Part shown: positions 11,363 to 45,288 of the stretch, in pieces
How the letters are laid out: each line of letters starts with the position of its first letter
How positions within the stretch are numbered: the stretch's first letter is position 1
DNA from: Clostridiaceae bacterium
GTDB lineage: Bacteria; Bacillota; Clostridia; DSM-8532
NCBI GenBank assembly: GCA_012728015.1
Contig: JAAYFY010000033.1
Coordinates: 1 to 45,288, forward strand
Direction of reading: 5' to 3'
DNA: 45,288 nucleotides
Made by a program: the position numbers and the translations under genes
Notes under the pieces: model-generated
What the model saw: only the letters and a program-made list of their open reading frames with translations
What the model was told of the DNA's origin: nothing
The model's database searches: none

Positions 11363-11432
11363 GAACCAGGGGGACAGTTCCTGTGGCCAATGCAGGAGAT
11401 TGCTTCGTCGGCTTCGTCTTCTCGCAATGACA
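11363..11432 (-). repeat. Composite intergenic repeat, copy 1
   Basis: Reverse complement of a segment nearly identical over about 70 bp to 44656-44727. It joins a GGGGACAGTTCC core to a TCATTGCGAG...GAAGCAATCTC core. A further TCATTGCGAG...GCAATCTC unit follows at 11472-11508. Confidence 0.75.
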
Positions 11433-11754
11433 CACCGGACTGTCAACGCGAGCGGAAGCCCTTCTTTTATATCATTGCGAGCAAGCGTCAGCGCAGCGCG
11501 GCAATCTCTTAACTGTTTCGCCAGTTATTTCGTGGTTTAGCGCGCTGTTCAATCTCTCCATAGCTCTGCTCCCCGATGGGCATATTTAAGCCTCCTTGTG
11601 ATGATGCCAAAATGATCTGTTGGCGTATAAAACCTGGAAAGCAGGCCGATAATGGAAACAGGATCAATCCTCCGCGAATAATCCCCATCGGCCGACCGAG
11701 GATTATACCCAGCCGGAACCATTGCAGGGCTTGCGGCGCAGCCGCCGGCCGGTG
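11433..11754. other. Gene-free, repeat-bearing spacer upstream of ileS
   Basis: Holds a second TCATTGCGAG...GCAATCTC unit (11472-11508) and an inverted repeat near 11676-11706 (ATAATCCCCATCGG / GAGGATTAT). No convincing gene is seen. A minus-strand reading of 24 residues starting at 11583 has a good AAGGAGG before its ATG but matches nothing I recognise and ends inside the repeat, so it is not called as a gene. Confidence 0.5.
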
Positions 11755-11796: not shown

Positions 11797-12070
11797 AGCC
11801 GAACAAGAATTATAAAGCGATGACCGGTACGAGTAGGATTTCCGAAACCTTGCAGAGAGTGGGGAACGGGTGGGAGCCCCGCAGGGAACGGGGTCTGAAG
11901 ATCAACCGCGAGCTGCAGCCTGAAAAGCCCGAAAGGCTGATTAAGGTGAGCCGGAATGAGTCCGTTATCCTCAAACAAGTGGTCCCGTAACCATTGGCGG
12001 GTTATGGGGCAATTTGGGTGGTACCACGGAAAGCAGAGCCTTTCGTCCCATTGGACGATGGGCTTTTTTA
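11797..12070 (+). promoter_or_regulatory. T-box leader (isoleucine, AUC specifier)
   Basis: Senses uncharged tRNA-Ile and allows read-through into ileS. Visible parts: the distal stem I motif (GCAGAGAGTGGGGAACG near 11862), a specifier-loop candidate TGAAG-ATC-A with the Ile codon at 11901-11903, the CCGTTATC element near 11962, and the invariant antiterminator sequence GGGTGGTACCACGG at 12016-12029. This is followed by a competing terminator hairpin (about 12036-12065) and a T-run. The TGGT in the antiterminator suits a tRNA with discriminator A, as in tRNA-Ile. The gene downstream agrees with the codon. Confidence 0.93.
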
Positions 12071-44655: not shown

Positions 44656-44727
44656 TGTCATTGCGAGGAGGCGAAGCCGACGAAGCAATCTCTTGCATTA
44701 ACCACAGGAACCGTTCCCCCTGGTTGC
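44656..44727 (+). repeat. Composite intergenic repeat, copy 2
   Basis: About 70 bp nearly identical to the reverse complement of 11363-11432: TGTCATTGCGAG, then GCGAAGCCGACGAAGCAATC, a short linker (TTGCATT), and CCACAGGAACCGTTCCCCC. Another GCGGCAATCTC follows at 44748-44758. Confidence 0.75.
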
Positions 44728-44779
44728 TCCCCGCCCTCAGCGACATGCGGCAATCTCTGCAAAGAAAGTTATAATGGCG

Positions 44780-44785
44780 TATAAT
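44780..44785 (+). promoter_or_regulatory. Possible -10 box of the structured RNA gene
   Basis: TATAAT about 22 bp before the first helix at 44808; a second TATAAT lies at 44770-44775. No convincing -35 hexamer is seen. Confidence 0.35.
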
Positions 44786-45040
44786 GTACGCATTTACCTA
44801 AAAGAGACGTGCTGTTTCTGTCTCGAATGACTCCGCAGGAGCAGCTGAAGTTGTATGCGAAATGCGAAGAATCGAGCGGAAAAAAACAACCGGATGTTGT
44901 TTTTAGCCGGCAGTCGCATGGATGCGACGTTACCGGCGGCCCTGCGAGATCGAGCATGAGCATGTACAACTTCCTGCGACGAGGACCGAAGGAGAGACTG
45001 AACAGCACGGCTACAAGACGCATTAACTCACGAAACGTAA

Positions 45041-45069
45041 ATAGAGATTGCCGTGCTTTGCCCGCAATG
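45041..45069. repeat. Short TCATTGCG...GCAATCTC repeat inside the RNA locus
   Basis: Reads AGAGATTGCC...GCAATGA, the reverse complement of the unit at 11472-11508. It separates the RNA core from the 3' segment shared with the left end, and that shared segment breaks off within this repeat. Confidence 0.6.
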
Positions 45070-45231
45070 ATATACACAGGGGACGGCAGACTGTACGAAA
45101 ATATAGAATCAAAGTGTTTGCAGGAATCCCGTAAAGCCCGGCCGCTGTGCTGCACAGCTGCGAAACATCAACCACTCGAATGAGGGTCGGCTGAACTCGC
45201 TTCGCTCAAACAGCAGCCGCCCTTTTCTCAT
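45065..45231 (+). repeat. Right copy of the contig-end inverted repeat
   Basis: Reverse complement of 1-166 with few differences. It contains the hairpins at 45115-45167 and the terminator at 45184-45229. Having one copy at each end suggests the contig stops at a multi-copy sequence. Confidence 0.85.
45184..45229 (+). terminator. Intrinsic terminator at the end of the structured RNA locus
   Basis: GGG(T)CGGCTG (45184-45193) pairs with CAGCCGCCC (45214-45222), followed by TTTTCTC. It is conserved in the left-hand copy. Confidence 0.7.
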
Positions 45232-45288
45232 TCTCGCGGGATGTTTCGGCGCCTTATCGCAAGGCGGCCTTGTTTTACGGGATCCCCC

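Follow-up and report, generated by a model that had tools for sequence, protein, structure and literature searches.

A dispersed, structured RNA related to TwoAYGGAY with two GGA hairpins, a candidate CsrA decoy in Clostridia

Introduction

In Gammaproteobacteria, RNAs that antagonise CsrA are well known. GGA in the loop of a hairpin is the signal that CsrA recognises, and a pair of such hairpins is a known CsrA format; at the same time, many bacteria that possess CsrA carry no homologues of the known antagonist RNAs, and in Bacillus it is a protein, FliW, which antagonises CsrA (PMC4894983). For TwoAYGGAY RNA (Rfam RF01731), binding by CsrA was proposed in 2014 based on motif matches (PMC4333381). 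We found no literature that deals directly with CsrA-antagonist RNAs of Clostridia or with structured REP-like repeats.

Here, we describe a structured RNA at the right end of a 45,288-nucleotide contig of a Clostridiaceae bacterium (the whole stretch is referred to as the window), which is related to TwoAYGGAY, carries two GGA hairpins and is repeated across its genome.

Results

A structured RNA without a gene layout of its own

The first-pass annotation had placed a structured, probably non-coding RNA gene at 44808-45229, with nested helices in 44808-45009 inside an outer stem (CGTGCTGTTT / GAACAGCACG). The helices are borne out by the folding energy as well as by covariation among homologues. 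The stretch 44808-45009 reaches a minimum free energy of -84.9 kcal/mol compared with a mean of -59.3 (sd 4.2) for shuffled sequences (z -6.1; equalled by 0 of 200 shuffles), and its shape is that of a single long interrupted stem bearing two hairpins. Since the full 44808-45229 folds with a far weaker z of -2.4, we conclude that the structure is confined to the first ~200 nt. The coordinates of the features are summarized in Table 1.

Table 1 Features of the structured RNA and of the repeats surrounding it. Positions are those of the window.
Feature	Position	Strand	Basis
Unit A, dispersed repeat holding the structured RNA (edges approximate)	~44804..45058	+	13 matches in own genome and 16 in G003; also in six other family genomes
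Unit B, second dispersed repeat with the 45184-45229 hairpin, cut by the contig end	~45043..45288	.	separate matches in own genome (G000) and four sister genomes
Structured RNA including outer stem	44808..45009	+	z -6.1; double changes in 28/53 pairs, 35 copies
Outer stem P1, 5' arm	44808..44814	+	double changes in 5/7 pairs; 98.8% of cells paired
Outer stem P1, 3' arm	45003..45009	+	same P1 covariation as 5' arm
Hairpin 1, loop CGGAU, GGA at 44892-44894	44882..44904	+	stem covaries, double changes in 5/9 pairs
Hairpin 2, loop UGGA, GGA at 44920-44922	44906..44937	+	stem covaries, 6/11 pairs
Core common to TwoAYGGAY RNA (stretch of model R1)	44841..44977	+	R1 finds 18/44 RF01731 loci
Palindromic REP-like repeat CATTGCGAG...GCAATCTC, on the left side of unit A	44659..44692	.	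dispersed in genome
GCAATCTC, inner end of left REP-like arm by unit A	44750..44757	.	same place in many copies
GAGATTGC, inner end of right REP-like arm	45044..45051	.	same place in nearly all copies of own genome

The covariation analysis was based on an alignment of 35 full copies of unit A, the repeat which holds the RNA, and on a structure written from the window fold and the RNAalifold consensus. In the written structure 96.6% of the cells are paired and compensatory double changes affect 28 of the 53 pairs (0 of 500 shuffles as high), and pairing falls to 30-47% if the partner is slid by 1-3 columns as a control; RNAalifold on the same copies gave double changes in 25 of 43 pairs. The stem of hairpin 1 varies by genome and reads AACAAC/GTTGTT, ATCTGC/GCAGAT or AGCAGC/GCTGCT. 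Cells with G-U outnumber those with A-C by 51 to 19 in the 35 copies, although 21 of the 51 come from two columns, and by 38 to 11 in the recovered RF01731 loci described below. This excess favours the plus strand as the putative RNA and, the copies being related, is to be read as a lean and not as proof. Single-base indels across the copies shift the open frame present in the window, and substitutions track the base pairs; from the broken frame we conclude that unit A is not a protein gene. Altogether, a structured non-coding RNA is strongly supported.

The same does not apply to the promoter and terminator that had been assigned to it. TATAAT is indeed present upstream, even twice (44770-44775 and 44780-44785), but is not retained in the other copies. 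Scoring gave no sigma-70-like promoter for the structured RNA, and no conserved promoter or terminator was seen. The hairpin at 45184-45229, which had been taken for the terminator, exists, but it belongs to a separate dispersed repeat, unit B. We therefore reject the picture of a single 200-430 nt gene equipped with promoter and terminator; what had been read as such is rather one repeat copy abutting another repeat. The first-pass observation is thus sound for the first 200 nt and not for the gene picture, and the repetitive nature of the element was not visible from the window sequence alone.

Unit A RNA is a divergent relative of TwoAYGGAY by homology

No Rfam family reached its cut-off at 44808-45229; the sole hit in the window that did is a T-box at 11811-12053. 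Directly upstream of this T-box, window positions 11396-11559 hold an inverted REP-like pair together with a short stretch like the right edge of unit A. In a permissive scan (E up to 10), the only match to the structured RNA was TwoAYGGAY, which covered 44834-44987 at full length with 31.4 bits (E 0.0066) and therefore lies below the RF01731 gathering cut-off of 43 bits. RaiA, HEARO, OLE and 6S RNA were rejected, since none gave a covariance match even at this permissive threshold, and with raiA falls the family suggested by the first-pass annotation. Whole-genome scans of the own genome and of G003 with RF01731 matched no unit A copy, nor did the model match any of 15 loci of the unit A family at E up to 1.

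We also built a covariance model from unit A copies alone (R1; stretch as in Table 1), which recovered 18 of the 44 loci fetched with RF01731 (E up to 1), in each case at the same place, on the same strand and over the full model, with a best E of 4.5e-11 and 17 of the 18 at E <= 1.1e-4. Double changes were found in 43 of 46 pairs of 17 recovered TwoAYGGAY loci, in an alignment which is itself fitted to the model, and slid controls were 37-46% paired. Since the window copy fails the curated threshold and yet R1 finds RF01731 loci, we conclude that unit A RNA is, as judged from covariance-model homology, a divergent relative of TwoAYGGAY, i.e. a previously unrecognised branch missed by Rfam, and not a filed member. 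The earlier suggestion that the RNA may be undescribed holds insofar as Rfam's model does not claim it, but its homologue TwoAYGGAY is a described RNA.

TwoAYGGAY itself is multi-copy in many carriers (28 matches in G046 and 12 in G051, for example) and is in most cases antisense to, or convergent with, the neighbouring genes. Copy number and orientation do not fit the type 'Cis-reg' which Rfam assigns to the family, and both the RF01731 model and this type appear to understate it.

Two GGA loops are nearly invariant

The RNA presents two side-by-side hairpins, whose GGA loops are 28 nt apart and whose neighbouring stems change freely. The three GGA bases are kept in 33, 34 and 35 of the 35 unit A copies in loop 1, and in 34, 35 and 35 in loop 2; in the RF01731 loci, GGA is kept in 14 of 17 (loop 1) and 17 of 17 (loop 2). 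Regarding the loop form AYGGAY, loop 2 of the window copy reads AUGGAU and loop 1 CCGGAU, which lacks the leading A, with GGA in both. With 6 GGA in total compared with 4.1 expected, the window copy does not exceed chance (162 of 1000 shuffles), and an overall enrichment was therefore rejected. Near-invariant GGA loops on changing stems are the pattern of CsrA sites, which suggests binding by CsrA as a prediction from sequence.

Two dispersed repeats meet at the contig end

Matches in the own genome (97 contigs) resolve the right end of the window into two repeat units, A and B. Unit A gave 13 matches in this genome, some of which are partial (about a dozen sites), and 16 in G003, which belongs to the same genus; copies 70-76% identical are present in G005, G022, G023, G025, G026 and G030, and carriers beyond the own genome comprise seven genomes of the same bacterial family. 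Among GTDB genomes, an exact 20-base core pattern is limited to a few MAGs of Clostridia, which bear the titles Clostridiaceae or Bacillota bacterium. It has no match in viral contigs, and blastn against phages and plasmids gave no match either, so that a phage or plasmid origin of unit A was rejected. Unit B was found in five of five genomes of the genus, and it occurs without an adjacent unit A in all four sister genomes and elsewhere in the own genome. Both ends of the contig (45043-45288 and 1-166) are unit B copies with the inverted repeat CCCGTAAA / TTTACGGG, from which we conclude that the contig probably breaks at unit B repeats.

Of the unit A copies read in the own genome, most are flanked by inverted REP-like arms, CATTGCGAG...GCAATCTC and GAGATTGC...CGCAATGA, and GCAATCTC occurs 9 times in the window compared with 1.75 expected. 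The arms in G023 are quite different (GGGCTGTCTCAAAA / TTTTGAGACAGCCC); in copies of this genome such as L071 and L064 they resemble the ends of insertion sequences. The own genome has one Y1 transposase gene (PF01797), near which GCAATCTC occurs once and a REP pair is absent; this gene is thus not supported as the mover of unit A.

At one orthologous gene pair, unit A is present in the own genome and a remnant of it in G003; G001 and G002 have no more than a short REP pair there, and the site in G004 holds unit B. Since the occupancy of this site differs between sister genomes, we conclude that unit A spreads; inverted arms and variable occupancy are both features of the REP/MITE type. Furthermore, three loci in two genomes represent copies without a core, which keep the outer stem, have lost both GGA hairpins and share a common deletion junction, CTCCGCATGAGCATG. 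The GGA core is thus probably not needed for the spread, although the common junction may also reflect recurrent deletion at short homology. If the core is indeed dispensable in this respect, it would be kept for another reason. Nested repeats were seen in L083 and L084 (both G003) and L110 (G022), in which the core is swapped for another long hairpin or a tandem insert (CTGCTCGGCTATGCGACCTAGCCTGGTCGTTACG) is present.

Copies are intergenic and prefer convergent sites

Unit A copies are intergenic, with 13 at convergent and 2 at divergent sites. At codirectional sites the strand of the upstream gene is not preferred (7 vs 8; 10 vs 17 for TwoAYGGAY loci), and the gene on the 3' side lies on the opposite strand for 22 of 33 unit A copies and 28 of 43 TwoAYGGAY loci. 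The copies L057, L059, L064 and L072 are located just after stop codons, with closing stem and T-run. This orientation pattern is evidence against a leader; it favours an independent transcript or, alternatively, a repeat at the DNA level.

Carriers are flagellated and mostly possess csrA

The own genome encodes csrA (C48:5907-6059). In a class sample of 393 genomes, RF01731 was found in 34, csrA in 135 and fliF in 154 (over cut-off). The RF01731 carriers possess csrA in 32 of 34 cases (Fisher p 3e-14, which ignores phylogeny) and fliF in all 34. If carriers of the unit A family are included, fliF is present in 41/41 and csrA in 38/41, compared with 113/352 and 97/352 of the other genomes, numbers that are likewise uncorrected for phylogeny. 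Carriers without a detected csrA are G021 and G025 (one copy each) and G185 (400 contigs) and, outside the class sample, G030 (86% complete). Restricted to flagellated genomes, csrA is present in 38/41 carriers and 96/113 non-carriers, which is not significant (p 0.28), and an association with csrA at this level was rejected. The distribution thus fits a role connected to CsrA or to flagella, and due to the non-significant csrA link within flagellated genomes the data do not separate the two.

Discussion

The reading that we favour, and to which we give an even chance, is that unit A is a dispersed, intergenic decoy RNA with two CsrA sites, which belongs to the TwoAYGGAY lineage and, in this genus, is hosted by REP-like arms. 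Building on the observed homology and conserved structure, the plus strand of unit A would be transcribed, its two GGA hairpins would bind CsrA, perhaps a single dimer, and the many copies would jointly titrate CsrA, a regulator of flagellin and motility. Such a decoy would resemble CsrB or RsmZ in its action, but consist of small units spread over the genome in place of a single long RNA, and it would act beside the protein antagonist FliW. Less in keeping with this reading are the non-significant csrA link within flagellated genomes, the carriers in which csrA was not detected, the GGA total at chance level, the lack of conservation of any promoter or terminator, and the CCGGAU of loop 1.

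Possible, though in our view doubtful, is a REP- or MITE-like DNA repeat without any RNA function, the fold of which is relevant only to the DNA or to its mobility, e.g. as a cruciform or for recognition by a transposase. Dispersal, bounds of inverted repeats, variable occupancy, copies with internal deletions and a lack of orientation bias would all be accounted for in this way. However, a fold needed merely as DNA fits neither the bias of G-U over A-C nor GGA loops that stay invariant while their stems change; moreover, G023 and the TwoAYGGAY genomes combine the same fold with arms of a very different kind, and deletion copies spread without the core.

Somewhat less probable still, we consider that the RNA is structured for a partner other than CsrA, or that it serves as a stabiliser or 3' end element for the RNAs of neighbouring genes. 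The preference for convergent over divergent sites and the four copies placed just after stop codons point in this direction, as does the finding that csrA is statistically not required within flagellated genomes. Evidence to the contrary is that codirectional copies do not favour the upstream gene's strand, and that a pair of GGA hairpins is a known CsrA format (PMC4894983).

A cis-regulatory leader, as implied by Rfam's typing of RF01731, is very improbable and was rejected on orientation, since the gene on the 3' side usually lies on the opposite strand and the flanking genes differ between copies. A protein encoded by the open frame 44809-45183 (124 aa), which is intact in the window, is refuted by frame-shifting single-base indels within and between genomes and by substitutions that follow the pairing.

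Returning to the CsrA decoy, a broader and decidedly speculative extension would be that TwoAYGGAY-type RNAs constitute a mobile decoy system, in which REP-hosted cassettes spread two-site traps for CsrA through the genomes of flagellated Clostridia. If true, the copy number of a repeat would set the level of free CsrA and hence flagellin synthesis. Given a repeat RNA with GGA loops that is restricted to flagellated Clostridia in the class sample, the prediction of 2014 (PMC4333381) becomes directly testable.

Compared with known systems, unit A RNA shares with raiA RNA (RF03072) the size of about 200 nt and the occurrence in Clostridia, but has no Rfam match to it. With REP/BIME and MITE elements, unit A has in common that it is a short intergenic repeat with inverted arms, many copies, a preference for convergent sites and no protein; in contrast to these, the arms of unit A enclose a structured RNA with phylogenetic conservation, and one orthologous site holds differing cargo. 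The likeness to TwoAYGGAY comprises the same order of helices across the model, a pair of adjacent GGA-loop hairpins, multiple copies, flagellated Clostridia as hosts and covariance models that mutually detect each other, whereas unit A RNA differs by its score below the Rfam cut-off, a pentaloop CCGGA(U/A/C) in place of AYGGAY in loop 1, a conserved outer stem of its own and, in this genus, the REP-like arms. CsrB/CsrC and RsmX/Y/Z, to which unit A has no sequence match in Rfam, likewise present GGA in hairpin loops as CsrA sites; however, these RNAs of Gammaproteobacteria each come from one gene and carry numerous GGA loops, while unit A, as a putative CsrA binder, is a unit of two hairpins repeated genome-wide.
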